This document shows positions 42,150 to 62,477 of a stretch of 64,000 nucleotides of DNA, piece after piece (within the stretch, counting starts at the first letter, position 1; each line of letters opens with the position of its first letter). The notes below the pieces were generated by a model. That model did not search any database and had not been told where the DNA came from. It worked only from the letters and a program-made list of their open reading frames with translations. The position numbers and the translations under genes were made by a program. The stretch comes from Faecalibacterium taiwanense (lineage in GTDB: Bacteria; Bacillota; Clostridia; Oscillospirales; Ruminococcaceae): NCBI RefSeq assembly GCF_036632915.2, contig NZ_CP155552.1, positions 62,001 through 126,000 on the forward strand, written 5' to 3'.

Positions 42150-43655
42150 TTATGCCTTCTGAGAAGCGGTGTGCTTCTTGGTGGCATGGATGAAGAGTGC
42201 CAGCATTGCGATTGCAAAGATGATGCCGATGGGGTATGCAACGGCAGTGTTGTAAGCGACCAGCTTGCCGTCTGCGTAAGTATTGATCATCTTGCCCAGG
42301 CACTCAGGTGCCAGCACGAAGTAGGTGCAGGACACAGCGCTCATGAAGGTAGCGGGCACAGCGGTGATCCAGTAGTTCTTCTTCTCCTTGAACAGGTACA
42401 TGGATGCAGCCCACAGAACGATCATGGCCAGCGTCTGGTTGGTCCAGCTGAAGTAGCGCCAGATCACGGTGTAGTTGATGAAGCCCAGTGCGTTGCCGAT
42501 GCCAAGGAAAGCGCCAACGCCCAGAACCGGAATGCAGAGCTTCAGGCGGTTTGCGTAGCTGTCCTGATCGATCTTGAGCCAGTCGGCCAGGGTCAGACGA
42601 GCGGAACGGAACGCGGTATCGCCGGAGGTGACGGGGCAGATGACAACGCCGATCATTGCCAGAGCAATGCCAACGCCGCCCATGGTCTTTGCACACACGT
42701 CGTAGATGGCAGCAGACTGACCAGCAGCCAGAGCCTCGGCCAGACCAGCCATCTTGCCGTCGGTGATGGTGTACAGTGCGCAGCCGGCAGCGGCCCAGAT
42801 CAGAGCGATGACGCCCTCGCAGACCATTGCGCCGTAGAACACGAAGTGGCCCTGCTTCTCACTCTTCATGCAGCGAGCCATCAGAGGCGACTGGGTGGAG
42901 TGGAAGCCGGAGATAGCGCCGCAGGCAACGGTGATGAACATGAAGCTCCAAATGGGAGTGCCCGACGGATGCATGTTGCCGAAGTTTGCCCAGATCTCGG
43001 GGATGGTGTAGGCGGGGTTGGTAAAGATGCCGAAGATAACGCCCACAGCCATGATGATCAGGCAGATGCCGAACACGGGGTAGATCTTACCGATGATGGC
43101 ATCAATGGAAATAAAGGTTGCGATGAAGTAGTACACCAGAATGATGATCAGCCAGAACAGGGTGGTGGTCAGCAGACCGGACATGCCGCTGTTCTTGCAC
43201 AGGGTAACGATCAGGCCTGCGGGGCCCACTGCGAACACGGTACCAACCATGATCAGCAGCACAACAGAGAACACACGCATGATGTTCTGCATGACAGGTC
43301 CGAGGTATCTGCCGGTGACCTCAGCGATGGATGCGCCATCGTTGCGCTCGCTCATCATACCGGAGAAGTAGTCATGCACACCACCTGCAAAGATGGTGCC
43401 GAAGGTGATCCACAGGAACACCACGGGACCCCACAGAGCACCCTGCAGTGCACCAAAGATGGGGCCCAGACCTGCAATGTTCAGCAGCTGGACGAGGAAC
43501 AGCTTCCACTGGGGCATCACAACGTAGTCAACGCCGTCGTTGATGCGCACAGCAGGAGTTTCGCGGTCGTCCGGTCCGAACGTGTTGTCAACGATCTTGC
43601 CATAGACAAAGTAGCCGATGATCAAGAGCGCCAGACAGAGTAAGAAACTAATCAT
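42150..43655 (-). CDS. cstA: CstA-family (carbon starvation) transporter, paralogue 1
   Basis: 501 aa with about 13-15 membrane segments. The N-terminal GPDDRETPAVRINDGVDYV and later WGPVVFLWITFGTIFAGGVHDY and SERNDGASIAE motifs are diagnostic for CstA/BtsT proteins, which import pyruvate or peptides. It is about 90 percent identical by eye to the gene at 44085-45584, with the tail after residue 460 the least conserved. The ribosome site is AAAAAGGAGG. Its leader can pair with its start codon (see 43653-43807). Confidence 0.9.
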   Translation of the reverse strand: MISFLLCLALLIIGYFVYGKIVDNTFGPDDRETPAVRINDGVDYVVMPQWKLFLVQLLNIAGLGPIFGALQGALWGPVVFLWITFGTIFAGGVHDYFSGMMSERNDGASIAEVTGRYLGPVMQNIMRVFSVVLLIMVGTVFAVGPAGLIVTLCKNSGMSGLLTTTLFWLIIILVYYFIATFISIDAIIGKIYPVFGICLIIMAVGVIFGIFTNPAYTIPEIWANFGNMHPSGTPIWSFMFITVACGAISGFHSTQSPLMARCMKSEKQGHFVFYGAMVCEGVIALIWAAAGCALYTITDGKMAGLAEALAAGQSAAIYDVCAKTMGGVGIALAMIGVVICPVTSGDTAFRSARLTLADWLKIDQDSYANRLKLCIPVLGVGAFLGIGNALGFINYTVIWRYFSWTNQTLAMIVLWAASMYLFKEKKNYWITAVPATFMSAVSCTYFVLAPECLGKMINTYADGKLVAYNTAVAYPIGIIFAIAMLALFIHATKKHTASQKA

Positions 43656-44084: not shown

Positions 44085-45584
44085 TCATGCCTTCTGGGCT
44101 GCCTTCTTCGTTGCGTGGAGGAAGACTGCCAGCATTGCAATGGCAAAGATGATGCCGATGGGGTATGCAACGGCGGTGTTGTAGATGGTTGCGCCTTCTG
44201 CGGTCTTGGCGTTCAGCAGGCCGCCCAGGCATTCGGGAGCCAGAATGAAGTAGGTGGAAGAGACCGCGCTCATGAAGGTAGCGGGCACAGCGGTGATCCA
44301 GTAGTTCTTCTTCTCCTTGAACAGGTACATGGATGCAGCCCACAGAACGATCATGGCCAGCGTCTGGTTGGTCCAGCTGAAGTAGCGCCAGATCACGGTG
44401 TAGTTGATGAAGCCCAGTGCGTTGCCGATGCCCAGGAAAGCACCAACGCCCAGCACAGGAACACAGAGCTTCAGGCGGTTTGCGTAGCTGTCCTGATCGA
44501 TCTTGAACCAGTCGGCCAGAGTCAGACGAGCGGAACGGAACGCGGTATCGCCGGAGGTGATGGGGCAGATGACAACGCCGATCATTGCCAGAGCAATGCC
44601 AACGCCGCCCATGGTCTTGGAGCAGACATCATAAATAGCCTTGGACTGGCCCATGGCCAGTGCTTCGGCCAGACCGGTGTTCAGGCCGCCGGTCACCTCG
44701 TACAGGCTGCAGCCAGCAGCGGCCCAGATCAGAGCGATGACGCCCTCGCAGACCATTGCGCCGTAGAACACGAAGTGGCCCTGCTTTTCACTCTTCATGC
44801 AGCGAGCCATCAGGGGCGACTGGGTGGAGTGGAAGCCGGAGATTGCACCGCAGGCCACCGTGATGAACATGAAGCTCCAGATGGGAGTGCCCGACGGATG
44901 CATGCTGCCAAAGTGATCCCAGATCTCCGGGATGGTGTAGGCGGGATTGGTGAAGATGCCGAAGATGACACCGATGGCCATGATGATCAGGCAGATGCCA
45001 AAGATGGGGTAGATCTTGCCAATGACGGCATCAATGGAGATAAAGGTTGCAATAAAGTAGTACACCAGAATAATGATGAGCCAGAACAGCAGCGAGGTGA
45101 GCACGCCGGAAGCGCCGCTCTGACTGCACAGCTCCACGATCAGGCCTGCGGGACCCACCGCGAACACAGTACCCACCATGATGAGCAGCACCACCGAGAA
45201 CACACGCATGACGTTCTGCATCACAGGGCCTAAGTACTTGCCGGTGATCTCGGCGATGGAAGCGCCGTCGTTGCGCTCGCTCATCATGCCGGAGAAGTAG
45301 TCGTGCACACCGCCCGCAAAGATGGTGCCGAAGGTGATCCACAGGAACACCACAGGCCCCCACAATGCGCCCTGCATGGCACCAAAGATGGGGCCAAGGC
45401 CGGCGATGTTCAGCAGCTGAACGAGGAACAGCTTCCACTGGGGCATCACAACGTAGTCCACACCGTCATTGATGCGCACAGCAGGCGTTTCGCGGTCGTC
45501 CGGGCCGAAGGTGTTGTCCACGATCTTACCATAGACAAAGTAGCCCACGATCAGGATCGCCAGACAGAGTAAGAAACTGATCAT
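44085..45584 (-). CDS. cstA: CstA-family transporter, paralogue 2
   Basis: 499 aa from the ATG at 45584, chosen because it matches the first residues of paralogue 1 and has the identical AAAAAGGAGGTTTCTGGT before the ATG. The protein carries the same CstA motifs. Differences from paralogue 1 are clustered in the region around residue 315 and in the C-terminal 30 residues. Tandem duplication is recent in appearance because long DNA blocks are identical, but each copy has its own leader and terminator, so they can be regulated separately. Confidence 0.9.
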   Translation of the reverse strand: MISFLLCLAILIVGYFVYGKIVDNTFGPDDRETPAVRINDGVDYVVMPQWKLFLVQLLNIAGLGPIFGAMQGALWGPVVFLWITFGTIFAGGVHDYFSGMMSERNDGASIAEITGKYLGPVMQNVMRVFSVVLLIMVGTVFAVGPAGLIVELCSQSGASGVLTSLLFWLIIILVYYFIATFISIDAVIGKIYPIFGICLIIMAIGVIFGIFTNPAYTIPEIWDHFGSMHPSGTPIWSFMFITVACGAISGFHSTQSPLMARCMKSEKQGHFVFYGAMVCEGVIALIWAAAGCSLYEVTGGLNTGLAEALAMGQSKAIYDVCSKTMGGVGIALAMIGVVICPITSGDTAFRSARLTLADWFKIDQDSYANRLKLCVPVLGVGAFLGIGNALGFINYTVIWRYFSWTNQTLAMIVLWAASMYLFKEKKNYWITAVPATFMSAVSSTYFILAPECLGGLLNAKTAEGATIYNTAVAYPIGIIFAIAMLAVFLHATKKAAQKA

Positions 45585-53234: not shown

Positions 53235-53385
53235 GGTTCATCGGAGGACCGTTTTCAACGTAATTTGAAACGGGCCGGATAAGATGCCGTGCAGACAGCG
53301 CCCCGCCGGAGGTTTCGTTGCCGTAGTGACGAAGCAGATCGAGGCCGGGCGTGCACTCACGGACATTTATCCGGCCCGTTTTTTG
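53235..53385 (+). promoter_or_regulatory. Structured leader with terminator: candidate riboswitch or attenuator
   Basis: A short hairpin CGGT/ACCG (53235-53253) is followed by AAACGGGCCGGATAA (53268-53282), which pairs perfectly with TTATCCGGCCCGTTT (53367-53381) and ends in a T run. The long stem encloses about 85 nt that can form further stems. It precedes a MATE transporter. I could not match it to a riboswitch class I know. Confidence 0.6.
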
Positions 53386-53410
53386 CACCTTGTGCAGAAA
53401 GGAGGACGCC

Positions 53411-54758
53411 ATGTCCAAGCATCGGATCCAGCTTTCCGATCATTTTACCTATTCCCGCCTTTTGCGGTTCGTGCTGCCCTGCATCGGCACCATGCTGTTC
53501 ACCTCCATCTACGGCATCGTGGACGGCCTGTGTGTCTCCAACTTTGTGGGCAAGACGGCCTTTGCGGCGGTCAACCTCATCATGCCGCTGCCCATGCTGC
53601 TGGGCACCATCGGCTTTATGCTGGGCACCGGCGGCAGCGCCATCGTGGGCATCACGCTGGGCGAGGGCGACCAGAAAAAGGCCGACCGCTATTTTACCCT
53701 GTTCCTTCTGGCGGCTCTGATCTCGGTCAGTGTGCTGGCCGTGCTGGGCATTGTGTTCCTGCGGCCCATTGCCGTGCTGCTGGGCGCAAAGGGGAGCTTT
53801 TGGACTATGCGGTGCGCTATGGACGCATCCTGATGGTGTCCCTGCCCACCTTTGCGCTGCAGAATATGTTCCAGAGCTTTTTCGTCACCGCCGAAAAGCC
53901 GCACCTCGGCTTCTGGTTCACCGTGGGCGCGGGCTGCACCAACATGGTGCTGGATGTGCTGATGGTGGGGATCTGGGGCTGGGGCGTGGAGGGCGCGGCC
54001 ATTGCCACCTTTATCAGCCAGCTGGTGGGCGGCGTACTGCCGGTGTTCTACTTCATCGACCGCAGCAACTCCAGCCGCCTGCACCTGTGCAAGACCAGTT
54101 TTTACAGCAAAGTCCTGCGGGATGCCTGCATCAACGGCTCTTCCGAGCTGATGACCAACCTTTCCATGTCGCTGGTCAATATCCTGTACAACTACCAGCT
54201 GCTGCGTCTGGCCGGTGAGAACGGCGTGGCCGCCTACGGTGTCATCATGTACGCAGCCTTCCTGTTCGTGGCGGTGTTCGTGGGCTATGCCGTGGGCAGT
54301 GCACCCATCGTCAGCTTCCACTACGGTGCCCGCAACCACGCCGAGGTGCACAATCTCTACCGCAAGAGCCTGCGGCTCATCGCCGTGGTGGCTGTGACCC
54401 TGACGCTGGCTTCCATGTTCATCATCCCCTGTGTAGCGCGCATTTTCGTGGGCTACGATGCGGAATTGCTGGCCCTGACCAGCCGGGCCTTCCGGCTGTA
54501 TGCGCTGAGCTTCCTCATCATGGGCTTCAATGTGTATGCGTCCTCCTTCTTCACGGCGCTGGGCGACGGCGTGACCAGCGCGCTGATCTCCTTTTGCGCA
54601 CGCTGGCGTTTCAGGTGATCGCCATTCTCCTGCTGCCGCTGCTGCTGGGCATCGACGGCATCTGGCTGGCCGTCACCGCCGCCGAGCTGGCGGCTCTGGC
54701 CGTGAGCGCAGCCATGCTCCTCACCAAGGACAAGGTGTTCCATTACCGCAAGGTGTAA
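53411..54758 (+). CDS. MATE-family transporter, two frameshifts as read
   Basis: The first frame (ATG 53411, AGGAGG upstream; MSKHRIQLSDHFTYSRLL) is open to 53833. The conserved continuation (VRYGRILMVSLPTFALQN) is in another frame, and a third frame holds the end (FQVIAILLLPLLLGIDGIW...) to 54758. Adding one G at 53791-53794 and one T at 54592-54595 gives a single 449-aa MATE protein. The second halves of the helices are well conserved, so the gene is probably intact in the cell. It lies behind a structured leader. Confidence 0.75.
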
Positions 54759-56042: not shown

Positions 56043-56780
56043 ATGACATTGTTTTTGACCAGCAGCCCCAGCGGCTGCCCCTTTGAGCCGGGGCCGGATA
56101 TTCCGGTGCTGGACACGCGCAACCACTTTGTGGCGAACCTGCGGGCCGTCTGGCCGGATCACGCCGTGCTGGGCCTTGCCATTGCGGCAGACCCCTATGC
56201 CTACGAGCAGAACGACGAGATGTGCCGGGTGTTTGCCCAGAGCTTTGCGAACGCCCACCTGCCCCTGACGGCGCTCATCCCTTGCGATGCCCGCAATGCC
56301 GAGGAGATCGGTTCTCTTCTGCCCCAAAGCGGCTTTGTGATGCTGTGCGGCGGGCACGTACCCACCCAGAACCACTTTTTTGCTCAGCTGGGCCTGCCGG
56401 GGCTGTTCCACAACTACCACGGCATCGTGCTGGGCGTGAGTGCCGGCAGCATGAACGCCGCCCACATCGTGTACGCCGCGCCCGAGGAACCGGGCGAAGC
56501 CGCCGACCCGCACTACTCCCGCTGGATGAACGGCCTTGGCCTGACCGAGACCCGCATCCTGCCCCACTACCAGTTCATCCGGGATCATGTGCTGGACGGG
56601 CAGAAGATGGAGGACATCGCCCTTGCCGACAGCAAAAAGCGGCATTTTCTCGCTTTGCCGGACGGCTCGTATATCCTGTGCGCCGACGGCAGCGAGGCGC
56701 TGTACGGCAGAGGCTGGTACTTTGCGGATGGGATGATGGAAGAGATCAACGAGGATGAGGATGTGCTGCCTTTACGGTAA
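56043..56780 (+). CDS. Peptidase S51 (peptidase E-like) family protein
   Basis: 245 aa of the class I glutamine-amidotransferase-like fold. The nucleophile Ser lies in GVSAGSMN (near residue 137), with a catalytic His likely in LPHYQF. The family includes aspartyl dipeptidase PepE and cyanophycinase. No cyanophycin genes are nearby, so a peptidase role is the default. GAGGGATC precedes the ATG. Confidence 0.8.
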   Translation: MTLFLTSSPSGCPFEPGPDIPVLDTRNHFVANLRAVWPDHAVLGLAIAADPYAYEQNDEMCRVFAQSFANAHLPLTALIPCDARNAEEIGSLLPQSGFVMLCGGHVPTQNHFFAQLGLPGLFHNYHGIVLGVSAGSMNAAHIVYAAPEEPGEAADPHYSRWMNGLGLTETRILPHYQFIRDHVLDGQKMEDIALADSKKRHFLALPDGSYILCADGSEALYGRGWYFADGMMEEINEDEDVLPLR

Positions 56781-57018: not shown

Positions 57019-57125
57019 GTGAAAATGCGACACCGGGCAGCCTGCAGGCTGCCCGGTGTCGCTCAATTTAAAATCATTTTTCCGCTGAATATGCCCAAAG
57101 CAACGCGGCGGGCATTTTTGATCGT
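57019..57125 (+). repeat. Variable-palindrome element, copy E
   Basis: GGTGAAAAT leads into a perfect 16-4-16 inverted repeat at 57027-57062 (arms GCGACACCGGGCAGCC and complement, loop TGCA), then TTTTTCCGCTGAATATGCCC and a tail hairpin with GGGCAT ending TTGATCG. It faces copy D about 95 bp away and lies directly after jetC. Confidence 0.75.
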
Positions 57126-57177
57126 TCCACGTTCATTTCCGGCGCAGGCAGACATCATTGCGCATATAATGCGCACA

Positions 57178-60100
57178 TCATTCCGCCGCAAGGCGGATAA
57201 AGGGCGCTATTGCGTTGGTGTCGCCGTGGCGGACGATGGAGTAGGTGATGTCGCAGTAGGGCTGGATGGCGGTACTCTTTTCCACGGTGGAGATGAGCAG
57301 CACCTGCAGCTGCAGGCGGCGGAACAGTTCCATCATGGGGCGGATGCGGTCGCTGGTCATCTTGCTGAAAGCTTCGTCCAGCAGCACAAGGCGGATGCTG
57401 TTCTCGCTCTTTTCGTAGATCTGCAGCAGGCTGGCGCAGATGGCCACATAGAAGGGGGCCTGATTCTCGCCGCCGGAGGAGTCGCGGCTGACGCGGGACA
57501 GATATGCCTGCTGGCCGGTGACCCGGTTCGTCACCTTGATGTCGTAGTCCAGATAGGTGCGGTAGTCCACATAGTCCGACAGGGTCACGCCGCCGGTGCG
57601 GCCCTCCTGCCGGGCGCGGGTGTTCTCGTCCACGTCCGCCATGATTTTTTCCATCAGCTCGTCCACCTGACGCTCATAAGCAGGGTCGGCGGTGGCGGCA
57701 AGGTTGTCCAGCGAGTCGCCCTCGGTCATCTGCTGGTTGCCCTTGTCCACGATGACCTGATAGAAGGCCGCCAGCTGCGGGTCACGGCTGGGCTCCAGCT
57801 CAAAGCGGTAGACCTCCTCGCCGTAGGTCAGCTGCTCCATCACCTTGTTCAGCTCCCGGAACTGCCGCCGGGCGTTGAAGATATCGTCCTTCATGCGGAA
57901 CAGGATATCTTTGCGGAAGCGGTCCTTGCAGTCCCGCTGGGCCTGCTCCAGACGGGCGGCGTAGCGTTCCAGATCGATGCGCACAAGGCTCTCGTGCTGA
58001 GCGCGGTACTGATCCAGCCCCGCAAGGCCCAGCGGATAATCGCACACATAGTGCTCGTTGTAGGCCTTCTGGGCCGGTTCCAGCGTGCCGGTCAGATAGA
58101 CGGCCAGCGCATCGTCCAGCTTGGCCTGCGCCTTTTCCGCAGCCTGTGCGGCGGCGCGGGGCTTATCTGCCGGGGCCAGCGCCAGCATCCGGGTGCGGGC
58201 CAGCGGCTCCACCAGCGGGTGCGCCGCAAAGAAGCTCCGGGCAGCATCGGCGCTCTGCTGGGCCGTTTCCCCTGCCTTTTTCTGCTCTGCTTCGCAGGAG
58301 GCGATCTGCTTTTGGCACACGCGGATGTCGCCGCCCGTCTGCTCCACGGCGGCGCGGGCAGTCTCCCACGCGGCTTCGCGGGCTTCTTCCTCCTTGTAAA
58401 GCTGCTGCAGCAGCGGGTTCTCGCGGCACTCGGTGAGCTTTGCTTCCTGTTCGGTCACAGCATTCTGTGCGGCAGTCAGTGCGGCGCGGGCATCCCACAG
58501 TGCAGCCAGCTCGTCCAGTGCCGTGCCCCGCAGCAGGGTCTGGTACTGGTTATAGGCGGCTTTCAGGTTCTGTTCTGTCTGGGCGGCAGCACGGGCGCTT
58601 TCCCCCAGAGCTTCCAGCTCGGCCGCCAGCGCCCCGGTGCGGGCGCGGCGTGCGTCCAGACCGATATACCGCTGGGGAGTGCGCAGCCGTTCCAGCCGGA
58701 AGGGATGGTGGCGCAGAAGGTCGCGGGTGGCGCTGTCGGGATGCTGTTCCAGCGTATCGGGGGTGTCGCAGCAGACGATGCGGCCCAGAATGGTCTGGGC
58801 ATACTGTGCAGCCAGCGGGTTTTCGCTGCTCACCTGCGCGGCAAGGCTGTCCGGGCCGTACTTGTCGGCGCGGCGGTTGGCCTTGCGGATGCCCGGGGTG
58901 TCCAGCAGGCTGATGGGGCCTACCTTGTCCTTCAGAGCCACAAAGGCGCTTTTGGCGGCTTCGTAGTGGGCGGGCGGCACAAGGATATCAAAGCGGCGGT
59001 CGCCAAGGCAGGCTTCCACGCAGTCCTGCCAGCTTTCGTCCTCCACGTTCAACAGTTCACAGAAAATTTTCGCATCCGGCTGCATGCCCCGGCTCTTGAG
59101 TTCCGCATTCACGGCATCCCGCACCCGGGTGGCGGCATCGCCGTGGGGGTAGACCCACTTGCCGCCGGACACCGCGTCCAGCTCGGCGCGCTTCACGGCC
59201 TGATCCCGGTGCAGGGCGGCGGTGTTCTGGCGGGCAGCAAAATAGGCTTCCTCCAGCGGTTTTTCCTGCGCGGAGAGCCATGCGGTGAGCTGCGGCAGAG
59301 TGTCCGCCGTCAGCTCTTCGGCCTTGATGCCGGCAGCAAAGCCGCTGCGGCGCAGCACAGCCAGCAGGCTCTGGGTGCAGGCAAGGGCACTTTCTGCCTT
59401 TTCGGCTTTGCGTGCGGCGGTATCCAGCGCCGTTTTGCGGCGGGAAAGCTCCTCGGTCAGGGCGTCCAGTGCCCGGCCCTCGCCGCTGGCGCTGGCGGCA
59501 CCGTGGGCGGAAAGATAGGCCCGGCGGGCTTCCGCTTCGGCATTTTTGGCCTCGGCATAGCGGGCGTTCAGCCCGTCCAGCTGGCGGCGGCCCGCATCCA
59601 GATGCTCCTGCCAGACGGTCTGTTCGCTGCCGTCGGCAGCGGCGCGGGCCAGCAGCGCCGCGCCCCGGTTCACAAGGGTCTGGGTCTGCTTTTCGGCAGC
59701 TTCGCGGCCAAAATTCACGATCTCTTCCAGCGCGTTGGCGCGGGTCTGGGCCTCGGCCAGCACGGCGTGCAGATTTTCCAGTTCCAGCCGGTCGCCCTGC
59801 AAAGCGTCCAGATCCAGCTCCGGCTGGGGCAGGATGTACTGGTACAAAAACTCCCGGAAGTTGGGGATCTCGTCCATGCTGGTGCCCATCTGGAACACCT
59901 CGTTGAACTTTTTGCCCAAGGGGCTGGAGGCGCGCCCGATGCCCAGCGCACGGCAGATGCGGTCCCGCGCTTCGCTGGGGCTGCGGGTGTAGGAGAGACG
60001 GCCCGTTGCGGGCTTGAAGTCCTCCTTTGCGCTGGGTGCACCGGTCTTGGGGTCGATGAAGGGCAGCTGTTCCAGCGTGCAGCCGTCCTCCGAAAGATAC

Positions 60101-60471
60101 CATGTCTGATCGCCGGGGTGCAGCTCCTGCATGGGGCCTTCGGACTCCACCCGCACCGCGATGACGAAGGGGGTGCGCTTGACGCTGTCCCAGAACTCCG
60201 CCCCGATGTAGGCCACGGTATGGCCCGGGCGGCGGTAGGCGTTCTCGCCGCGCTGCTTTGCGTGCACCGAACCCTGCAGGGTGCGGCCGCTCTTTTTATT
60301 GCCCAGCGCATTGAAATTGCGGTTGGTGGTCAGGCAGTAGCGGATGGCATCCAGAATGGTGGTCTTGCCCACGGCGTTCACGCCGATCATATAGGTGAGC
60401 CGTGCGCAGTCGAAGGTGACATTTTCAAAGTTGTGCCAGTTGATAAGCTTCAGCCGTTTGAGTTCGATCAT
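57178..60471 (-). CDS. jetC: JetC: SMC/MukB-like ATPase of a Wadjet-type system
   Basis: 1097 aa. Walker A GVNAVGKTT is at residues 30-38. Two long Ala/Glu/Arg-rich coiled-coil arms (about residues 230-450 and 590-800) flank a hinge-like globular region near 450-590. The ABC signature SSGGENQ is near 998-1004 and Walker B IRLVLLDEAF near 1026-1035. This is the MksB/JetC architecture. The start overlaps jetB by ATGA. In Wadjet systems JetABC extrude DNA loops and JetD cuts small circular DNA; no jetD follows here. The sequence after the stop is copy E of the repeat. Confidence 0.88.
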   Translation of the reverse strand: MIELKRLKLINWHNFENVTFDCARLTYMIGVNAVGKTTILDAIRYCLTTNRNFNALGNKKSGRTLQGSVHAKQRGENAYRRPGHTVAYIGAEFWDSVKRTPFVIAVRVESEGPMQELHPGDQTWYLSEDGCTLEQLPFIDPKTGAPSAKEDFKPATGRLSYTRSPSEARDRICRALGIGRASSPLGKKFNEVFQMGTSMDEIPNFREFLYQYILPQPELDLDALQGDRLELENLHAVLAEAQTRANALEEIVNFGREAAEKQTQTLVNRGAALLARAAADGSEQTVWQEHLDAGRRQLDGLNARYAEAKNAEAEARRAYLSAHGAASASGEGRALDALTEELSRRKTALDTAARKAEKAESALACTQSLLAVLRRSGFAAGIKAEELTADTLPQLTAWLSAQEKPLEEAYFAARQNTAALHRDQAVKRAELDAVSGGKWVYPHGDAATRVRDAVNAELKSRGMQPDAKIFCELLNVEDESWQDCVEACLGDRRFDILVPPAHYEAAKSAFVALKDKVGPISLLDTPGIRKANRRADKYGPDSLAAQVSSENPLAAQYAQTILGRIVCCDTPDTLEQHPDSATRDLLRHHPFRLERLRTPQRYIGLDARRARTGALAAELEALGESARAAAQTEQNLKAAYNQYQTLLRGTALDELAALWDARAALTAAQNAVTEQEAKLTECRENPLLQQLYKEEEAREAAWETARAAVEQTGGDIRVCQKQIASCEAEQKKAGETAQQSADAARSFFAAHPLVEPLARTRMLALAPADKPRAAAQAAEKAQAKLDDALAVYLTGTLEPAQKAYNEHYVCDYPLGLAGLDQYRAQHESLVRIDLERYAARLEQAQRDCKDRFRKDILFRMKDDIFNARRQFRELNKVMEQLTYGEEVYRFELEPSRDPQLAAFYQVIVDKGNQQMTEGDSLDNLAATADPAYERQVDELMEKIMADVDENTRARQEGRTGGVTLSDYVDYRTYLDYDIKVTNRVTGQQAYLSRVSRDSSGGENQAPFYVAICASLLQIYEKSENSIRLVLLDEAFSKMTSDRIRPMMELFRRLQLQVLLISTVEKSTAIQPYCDITYSIVRHGDTNAIAPFIRLAAE

Positions 60472-61064
60472 TCTTCACCCTCCCCTGCTTCTTCCGGTCG
60501 TTCATAAAGGCCAAGCTCTGTGCGGGTGCGGGCAGATTCTGCCGCTGCATCCGCAAGGTCGGCATCCGGCAGGGCCAGCAGCACGGTGGGAAATACCTCA
60601 ATGCGGCTGTCCAGCCCGGAAAGCCGCCCCACAGGCCGCGCCAGATTGTACCGGCGCAGGGTGCGCATGAGGTTTTCCAGCGTTTTCTGGTCCAGACGGC
60701 GGGGCAGATTCATCTTCTGCAGTTCGGTCTGCACCTCTTCCACCGTCACCAGCACCTCGTCGGCATTGGCCGCAAGGCTCTCGCGCTTTTGCAGGTACAA
60801 AAGCCGCAATACCAAAAGCAGGATGCTCTCGTATTTCAGCAGCCGGGCCTGACTGCCCTCGTGGCCGTTGACCAAAGCCGCCGCCTGCAGGGGTGCCGGG
60901 TACAGCAATACAGAATAGCCCAGCGGGGCGAACACAGCGCGCACCTCGTCCAGATGGTCCTGCACATAAAGATATTTTGCCCGCTGATCCTCCACGCCGC
61001 CCAGCACGAAGCAGTGGTTCAGCAGGTAATTCGCGGTTTCTTCCAGCATGTTAATGGTTGCCAT
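60468..61064 (-). CDS. jetB: JetB: kite subunit (DUF4194 family)
   Basis: 198 aa from the ATG at 61064 (MATINMLEETANYLL), which overlaps the end of jetA by 14 bases; longer starts would run through jetA. The two winged-helix-like halves and the LLVLRLLYLQKRE segment near residue 80 match the DUF4194/MksE-like kite proteins that bridge kleisin and SMC heads. The C-terminus is acidic. The tight overlaps on both sides indicate strict co-translation with jetA and jetC. Confidence 0.85.
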   Translation of the reverse strand: MATINMLEETANYLLNHCFVLGGVEDQRAKYLYVQDHLDEVRAVFAPLGYSVLLYPAPLQAAALVNGHEGSQARLLKYESILLLVLRLLYLQKRESLAANADEVLVTVEEVQTELQKMNLPRRLDQKTLENLMRTLRRYNLARPVGRLSGLDSRIEVFPTVLLALPDADLADAAAESARTRTELGLYERPEEAGEGEE

Positions 61065-62477
61065 TTTCTTCCTCCCTGCGGCGGGTGAGGACAAAGTCCT
61101 CAAAGCGGAAACCGCCGCGCTCCACCCAATTGCCGGTGAGCTGAATGTCATAATCCCGGTGCGGCGACTGCGAGTAGGTGTGCAGGCCGATGATGCGGGC
61201 AAAATCGTTCGGGTATTCGTCTGCCAGAAGTGCCGCGTTCACCTGCGGGCGGGCGGCAAGGGCCTGCCGGGCCAGCAGGGCCACGTTCTCCTCGGTAACG
61301 GCAAGGCGGGCGTAATCCAGCAGCAATTGCTGCTCTTTTTTGAGCTGTTCCGGATCGAATACTTCGGTGCGCACCGGGGCCAGCGGCTCGGCGGTGCGCT
61401 GGGCAGCGGGCGGGTAGAGGAATTTTTCCCCGAACACTGCCGCCGGGTACAGATGCAGCCGCTTTGCCACCGGGCCGTCGTCCGGCTCAAACAGCTGCTC
61501 CGGGGTGCGGATGTCCTCGGCGTAGCGGCGCAGCAGGGCGGTGACGCTGCCCTGCGAAGAACGGTCGCTCAGCAGCAGGAACTGTGCCCGCTGCACAGCC
61601 CGCTTGCGGTAGCGGATGTGGCTTGCATCGATCTCGCGCATGAGCAGGCTCATCTCTTCCAGCGCGTCCCGCTGCTTCTGGATGAGTGCACGCACGGCAG
61701 GTGTCGCTTCGTTCGGGGCGCAGCGCTCCACCCGGGCATAATCAAAGGCCAGCTGCGGCAGGTAGTTCTCCTCGCAGTCGTCCAGCTCCTCTTCCAGATA
61801 GGCGCGGTAGTTGAACAGGTTGTCGCTGGTCTTGAAGCGGTGGTAGGCCGCCGCCACCACCTTTTCCTCGTACTGGTCGAACAGTTCCAGCACCTCCTGC
61901 GGGGTGCGGTTGCGGGTGAGCCGGTCGATATAGTGGCCGATGGAGGCGTTGAGCGCCCGGAGAGAGCGGTTCAGCGCGTCAAGATCTGCGTCCACCTCCC
62001 GCAGAACGTTCTCATAGGGGCTTTTTTCCTGCCCGATGCTGCCCAGCAGCTGCCATGCCTTGTACAGCTTGCCGGTATAGGTAACTACGCGGGGTTCAAT
62101 ATTTCTTCCAGCGCTTCCAGCAGCGGCGTTACCTCCGGCACAAAGGCAAGGGACGCTTCCCCCTCGTAGCTGCCGGGCTGCTCTTCCAGCCAGCCGGTGC
62201 GGCGCAGCCGCAGCAGAAAGCCCACGGCCAGCGTGTGAGGGTCGCGGGTGGGCTGCTCGTCTTCATCGCCCGCACCGTCGGCATCCAGCGCAAGGGGCTT
62301 TGCCAGTGCGGCAAAGTAATCCTCGGCACGCCAGACGGCCTCCGCACGGGAAATGCTGTAATCCGCCGTGTGGCGGCACTCCTCCCAGAGCAGAAGCAGC
62401 AATTCCGCATAAAAAGCCCGGTTCGGCCCCGCCAGCGGGCGGAACAGCCGCGGGGACACCAGTTCAAACAGCTGCAT
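61051..62477 (-). CDS. jetA: JetA: kleisin subunit, frameshifted as read
   Basis: ATG 62477 (AAAGGACG upstream) encodes MQLFELVSPRLFRPLAGPN, an N-terminus typical of JetA-family proteins of the type III-like Wadjet systems. The frame breaks in the GGGG at 62091-62094 (plus strand); one extra base gives a continuous 475-aa protein including ENVLREVDADLDALNRSLR and ending at 61051. The winged-helix N-terminus and long helical middle fit a kleisin. It begins the operon jetA-jetB-jetC. Confidence 0.82.

Follow-up and report, generated by a model that had tools for sequence, protein, structure and literature searches.

The stretch of Faecalibacterium taiwanense DNA analysed here (contig NZ_CP155552.1, positions 62,001 to 126,000; 64,000 nucleotides, hereafter the window) carries on its minus strand, at 57178-62477, the genes jetA, jetB and jetC of a type I Wadjet system lacking the nuclease gene jetD. 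This locus is best explained, with a probability put at roughly 0.48, as a type I Wadjet core that lost JetD, has been kept as a resident chromosomal locus and would work as a nuclease-free, MksBEF-like loop extruder. The explanation draws on three recognisable proteins with no JetD detected, on conservation between species and purifying selection, and on core-gene-like inheritance at an origin-proximal site. In the Wadjet systems described, extrusion by JetABC serves to sense circular DNA, which JetD then cuts (PMC10586767).

The first gene of the operon, jetA (kleisin), is split over two frames on the minus strand: its N-terminal 130 codons lie at 62085-62477 (Pfam JetA, 38.4 bits; PADLOC JetA1, 205 bits) and its C-terminal part, in another frame that extends slightly upstream of the listed start, at 61051-61995 (Pfam JetA, 188.8 bits; PADLOC JetA1, 517.4 bits). 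It is followed by jetB (60468-61073, minus strand), encoding a KITE subunit of 201 amino acids (PADLOC PDLC00479 JetB1, 222.8 bits; Pfam DUF4194, 64.4 bits, cut-off 32.7), and jetC (57178-60471, minus strand), encoding an SMC-like ATPase of 1097 amino acids (PADLOC PDLC00508 JetC1, 1932.7 bits). The three proteins belong to the type I Wadjet JetA, JetB and JetC families; the Pfam MksE model gives 22.2 bits, under its cut-off of 27, and the type I Wadjet models score far higher. The preliminary description, made from the letters alone, had read an operon of kleisin, kite and SMC genes here; Pfam and PADLOC agree on all three families and on type I Wadjet against other SMC families, jetA itself not being intact. 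The protein families are known ones: a relative is already named 'Wadjet anti-phage system protein JetA family protein' in one source, and the JetC cluster closest to the window sequence has 9747 member sequences. Sequence matches to solved structures were not found at E 0.001 for JetA (taken from G271, a genome of the same species), JetB or JetC.

Orthologues, defined by a JetC of at least 67% identity, were sought in 31 Faecalibacterium genomes and found in 15, the window's included, with the gene order A-B-C in 15/15. The overlap of jetB and jetC is 4 nucleotides (nt) in the window, as in all 16 loci examined. The ATPase motifs announced as intact in the preliminary description are indeed present in JetC (Walker A, GVNAVGKT; signature, SSGGE; Walker B, LVLLDEAF) and identical in 15/15 orthologues, a comparison that applies within the clade only, the signature search pattern being narrow and missing most other loci. 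Internal stops in jetC were found in none of the 15 orthologues (the window and 14 other genomes of the genus).

As the preliminary description stated, jetC, ending at 57178, is followed by no jetD. The JetD_C domain (PF09983) had no match in the window's own genome (2.96 Mb, single contig, 98% complete); the same search in 14 control genomes gave one match, in C. glutamicum. Nor was jetD found beside orthologous jetABC in any of the 14 loci with long flanks; in the fifteenth (G268) only 309 nt of contig remain beyond jetC. The absence of jetD from related loci points to more than a local deletion in this strain, and three genes are the norm within this Faecalibacterium lineage. JetD_C was found in 8 of the 31 genomes, and the remaining jetC loci detected in the genus are each accompanied by an adjoining jetD (8/8: G081, G251, G252 and G253, and second copies in G248, G249, G260 and G272; a match of 59 residues in G271 is left out of the JetC count). 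Four of the 15 carriers of jetABC thus hold a complete second jetABCD, whose JetC is 27-36% identical to the jetD-less JetC over matched stretches; in the other 11 carriers, among them G268 (79% complete), JetD_C gave no match in the genome. That jetD might be encoded elsewhere in the genome, as had been suggested, is not supported for the window's own genome, which gave no match; in those four carriers JetD lies within the second complete system.

Loci were fetched for wider context where matches resembled real JetC; weak matches were left out, as were G644, G768 and G857 (pieces or contig ends). In a first set of 40 loci, searched with profiles iterated over the loci, jetD lies directly after jetC in 23; none was detected in G600, in G493 or in the 15 Faecalibacterium orthologues. 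In a second set of 29 loci of the class, drawn from among the matches listed, jetD is matched in 24 (in pieces in G896) and not in G836, G657, G685a and G878, where no nuclease was recognised beside jetC, the downstream open reading frames (ORFs) being judged by eye without profiles; the jetD state of G707, whose contig ends soon after jetC, was set to unknown. Together the 69 loci comprise 47 with jetD, 21 without and one unassigned (G707), counts that give no frequency estimate, 15 of the 21 belonging to one Faecalibacterium lineage. The other jetABC loci of Clostridia without jetD in the fetched flank are thus G600; G493; G836, G657 and G685a; and G878, and JetD_C was also without a match in the genomes of G600 and G493. 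A scan of a named collection with two peptide patterns gave 10 loci, all Faecalibacterium; since G600 and G753 were found by other searches, that result does not show restriction to the genus.

In a careful tree (38 of the first 40 loci, two with partial JetC being left out), G600 (no jetD) branches first, followed by G081 (jetD) and finally by the 15 jetD-less orthologues. In a wider quick tree (50 of 69 loci, without 19 near-duplicate or partial rows), G753 (jetD) stands at the base of the clade and at least five changes of jetD state occur overall; several long branches were flagged by the program. G600 falls within the same JetC clade; G493, apparently an isolated jetD loss, falls elsewhere, as do G836, G657, G685a and G878 (loci L214, L215, L216 and L219), which occupy two places on the tree. 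G685 has a jetD-bearing copy besides the jetD-less G685a. G081 may have kept jetD or regained it. The reading of its JetD as a dead relic found no support, since it retains the EN, DLD and EQE positions and matches at 26 of 29 near-invariant sites, the three differences including a change of E to Q; which of the residues are catalytic is partly our assumption. The jetABC of G600 (L131) adjoins apparent competence and replication housekeeping genes, which we take, from ORFs read by eye, to be ComEC-like, HolA-like and RNase M5-like.

The jetD-less jetC lies 33-48 kb from dnaA in 13/13 genomes with both genes on one contig (of the 15 carriers), in one orientation in 12 of the 13; distances were measured by hand, and single-contig genomes were taken as circular. 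By arithmetic, about 3% of random sites would be no more than 50 kb from dnaA. The core gene ppaC is present in 31/31 genomes and lies 23-32 kb from dnaA in three non-orthologue genomes with a shared contig (G236, G264 and G081). On the stretch from ppaC onwards no jetC match was found in 14 non-orthologue genomes, 9 of which have the S51 peptidase gene, a neighbour of the operon in the window, on the same stretch as ppaC; in G236, G247, G252 and G257 a search of the ORFs between ppaC and S51 gave no jetA-D profile match. From these stretches without jetC, the operon was probably inserted once at the ppaC-S51 region, or lost in the other genomes.

In the four species with both systems, synonymous divergence (dS) over six genome pairs is 0.19-0.66 for ppaC, 0.11-1.03 for the jetD-less genes and 0.01-0.10 for the jetD-bearing ones. 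Over 78 pairs of 13 genomes, which are not independent, the dS of jetC (median 0.62) follows that of ppaC (median 0.56), with correlations of 0.91 (Pearson) and 0.73 (Spearman). The jetD-bearing copies sit in a common 8.4-kb block, 97-98% identical in the five pairs compared of the six and set in different surroundings; beyond it the flanks do not match, except for a 397-nt stretch at 65% in one pair. A 157-bp direct repeat opens the block and recurs after jetD, and the block looks mobile. It lies at L094:4167-12578 in G249, with matching blocks in L095, L096 and L148 (four Faecalibacterium species), and is ended by an ORF for a 320-amino-acid ATPase. Given the contrasting dS and the discrete block, the jetD-bearing system seems to move and the jetD-less system to be inherited within the same genomes.

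The jetD-less locus is under purifying selection, the ratio of nonsynonymous to synonymous divergence (dN/dS) of the jetA, jetB and jetC orthologues being 0.03-0.21 (33 comparisons: three genes in 11 genome pairs chosen of 105 possible). In the jetD-bearing copies it is 0.06-0.29 for jetA to jetC and 0.23-0.43 for jetD, from few changes. All dN/dS and dS values were taken from longest ORFs, which for some jetA and jetB frames extend upstream over possibly non-coding codons.

By homology, JetA, JetB and JetC would form an ATP-driven, DNA-loop-extruding dimer of dimers. Where its two motors meet there would be no nuclease to fire, and DNA loops would be extruded or held uncut. By analogy with MksBEF in Pseudomonas aeruginosa, the target would be the chromosome rather than plasmids, and JetABC would act there beside Smc-ScpAB. 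Canonical ScpB is present in 31/31 Faecalibacterium genomes; JetABC would therefore be a second condensin, and JetABC as the only condensin was rejected. A nuclease-free loop-extruding complex with another role was among the options of the preliminary description and is the best supported of its three; the extrusion and the role are what we infer. More tentatively, and with somewhat less than even odds, a defence complex may have been domesticated in Faecalibacterium as a second, nuclease-free chromosomal condensin near the origin, through a loss of JetD separate from that of Pseudomonas MksBEF, while its jetD-bearing relatives are still moving through the same species. The genus, an abundant gut commensal, offers a natural experiment: its members have the motor both with the nuclease and without it, in some cases within one cell, under contrasting modes of inheritance. 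The locus also cautions against reading a plasmid barrier into every gut genome that has three of the four Wadjet genes.

The nearest known system is type I Wadjet (JetABCD; MksBEFG in Corynebacterium; EptABCD in Mycobacterium), with which the locus has in common the JetA, JetB and JetC families, the A-B-C order and the subunit sizes; it differs in having no jetD in operon or genome, and in lying near dnaA and being inherited with a core gene, whereas the jetD-bearing copies of the genus are on a discrete, apparently moving block. MksBEF of P. aeruginosa is likewise a three-gene, nuclease-free, Wadjet-related system, thought to come from JetD loss, that coexists with Smc-ScpAB; it is described as contributing to chromosome organization (PMC10586767) and as acting in segregation beside SMC (PMC7485682). 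It is known here by description and not by sequence, and the window JetB stays below the Pfam MksE cut-off and fits DUF4194 and the PADLOC type I JetB. MukBEF of enterobacteria is likewise a nuclease-free kleisin/KITE/SMC complex, with an origin from Wadjet called a 'tempting' speculation; it apparently replaced Smc-ScpAB (PMC10586767), whereas Faecalibacterium keeps ScpB throughout. That source regards as unsettled both the action of a Wadjet motor on chromosomes and the descent of condensins such as MksBEF and MukBEF from defence complexes (PMC10586767). A jetD-centred survey of jet genes and plasmids in Bacillota reports strains without at least one jet gene, and its main text does not mention Faecalibacterium (PMC12287153). 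In the open-access literature searched (subscription papers and supplements being outside its scope) no description of this jetD-less lineage was found; the one paper found to name both Faecalibacterium and Wadjet does so in separate contexts.

Several observations weigh against a resident condensin. The orthologue is absent from 16/31 genomes, 12 of them without any jetC match (several less than 90% complete), and the locus is therefore dispensable; with ScpB in every genome, a further condensin is not obviously needed. The position near the origin may descend from one event, so that 13/13 is one observation. Low dN/dS is found in the jetD-bearing copies too, and low values alone are thus no argument for a new role. 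The N-terminal segment of JetB, in which an IFDR motif contacts JetD (PMC10586767), is equally short in the jetD-bearing G081 and G753, hence no marker of lost JetD docking; a short N-terminus as a mark of JetD loss was rejected, being found in the whole clade, and the segment is present in the jetD-less G493. Finally, the window's jetA is split between frames, and early breaks in the JetA frame also occur in at least five other protein clusters, from contigs 99 kb to 3.1 Mb long.

The break in jetA is unique to the window among the 15 genomes. Its jetA stretch is one base short against 14/14 relatives, all of which have jetA in a single frame, so that intact copies exist. In 29,845 columns aligned to the same-species genome G271, the window lacks a single base at 15 places and has one extra base at 7; these are not all within genes, and two of the deletions fall at a neighbouring MATE transporter gene. 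That gene (window 53351-54618) is split between frames and is one long ORF in relatives. The split gene and the one-base changes are compatible with residual indel errors of this assembly, and the jetA break may be such an error. Among short proteins that match JetA (the best 120 of 179), many come from short contigs and are not judgeable. Six short JetA proteins were fetched from a large protein collection: five, each with 1-10 member sequences, break frame early, and the sixth (P0121), of 196 residues, follows intact JetA at 98% identity as far as residue 190. The breaks in the five (P0133, with 1 member, on a 3.1-Mb contig; P0137, with 10 members, on a 494-kb contig; P0212; P0224; and P0225; all from Faecalibacterium-like assemblies) fall at about codons 80, 126-129 or 150; three of them cluster around codon 80, possibly a hot spot of mutation or of sequencing. 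The three largest intact-length JetA clusters listed have 5235, 4605 and 4389 member sequences.

Other explanations of the locus have to be set against this material. JetABC could still be directed against plasmids or phages without a JetD of its own, loading on small circular DNA and silencing, sequestering or mis-segregating it uncut. All matching profiles are Wadjet profiles, the ATPase motifs are intact and JetABC makes up the sensing half of Wadjet (PMC10586767), all of which agrees with such a role; suppression of plasmid transformation in B. subtilis, however, required all four subunits (PMC10586767), and the jetD-less locus, in contrast to the jetD-bearing copies, follows a core gene in its inheritance. 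We regard this as unlikely. Still less probable is a decaying Wadjet remnant, already without jetD and on course to disappear, with broken jetA frames in the window and some strains as the next step. The window's broken frame, the early breaks in other assemblies such as P0133 and P0137, the patchy presence in the genus and the apparently isolated jetD loss in G493 would fit decay; against it stand jetA in one frame in 14/15 orthologues and jetC without an internal stop in all, the low dN/dS, the absence of jetD across species with synonymous divergence above 0.5, the thousands of members in intact-length JetA clusters against 1 to 10 in the five broken ones, and the possible assembly error behind the window's own break, given the one-base deletions and insertions over about 30 kb.

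A nuclease might also act in trans, being either an unrecognised one encoded elsewhere, which PF09983 would miss if unrelated, or the JetD of the second system that 4/15 carriers hold complete. This too is improbable, and no better placed than decay: JetD_C has no match in 11/15 carriers, the second JetC is distant at 27-36% identity over matched stretches, and no conserved gene stands in jetD's place. The same two systems in one cell would allow JetABC to be a modulator of other Wadjet systems or mobile elements, for instance a resident competitor keeping incoming jetABCD complexes off the chromosome; with most carriers lacking a JetD_C match and the subunits distant in sequence, this is very improbable. 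The reading as a kept, nuclease-free Wadjet core thus remains the one preferred here.

Downstream of jetC the window has, as the preliminary description noted, a repeat and then a convergent peptidase gene. The latter (56043-56780, plus strand) is an S51 peptidase gene by Pfam (Peptidase_S51, 28.8 bits, cut-off 23.9) and is a neighbour. In 14 orthologous loci the gene next to jetC encodes a MATE transporter in 10 (9 on the same strand, 1 on the opposite) and an S51 peptidase in 4, the latter being the window's group; with no conserved gene there, a replacement effector in jetD's place was rejected. The repeat (57019-57125) is a dispersed hairpin element and not part of the system, with 30 matches in its own genome (its self-match and palindromic double matches counted) and a folding z of -3.57 for the 181 nt around it. 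Within 1500 nt after jetC it occurs in 1/16 loci, that of the window (one of the 16 having only 309 nt there), and the same-species genome showed no copy after jetC. Being near jetC only in the window's strain, while jetD is absent from the related loci checked, the repeat does not explain the missing gene, and a repeat-mediated loss of jetD, which had been proposed, was rejected. Elsewhere in the window, near-identical sequences recur 1929 nt apart at 42174-42593 and 44103-44522, one pair matching over 300 nt at 94% and a second over 81 nt at 90%; they may represent tandem paralogous genes.

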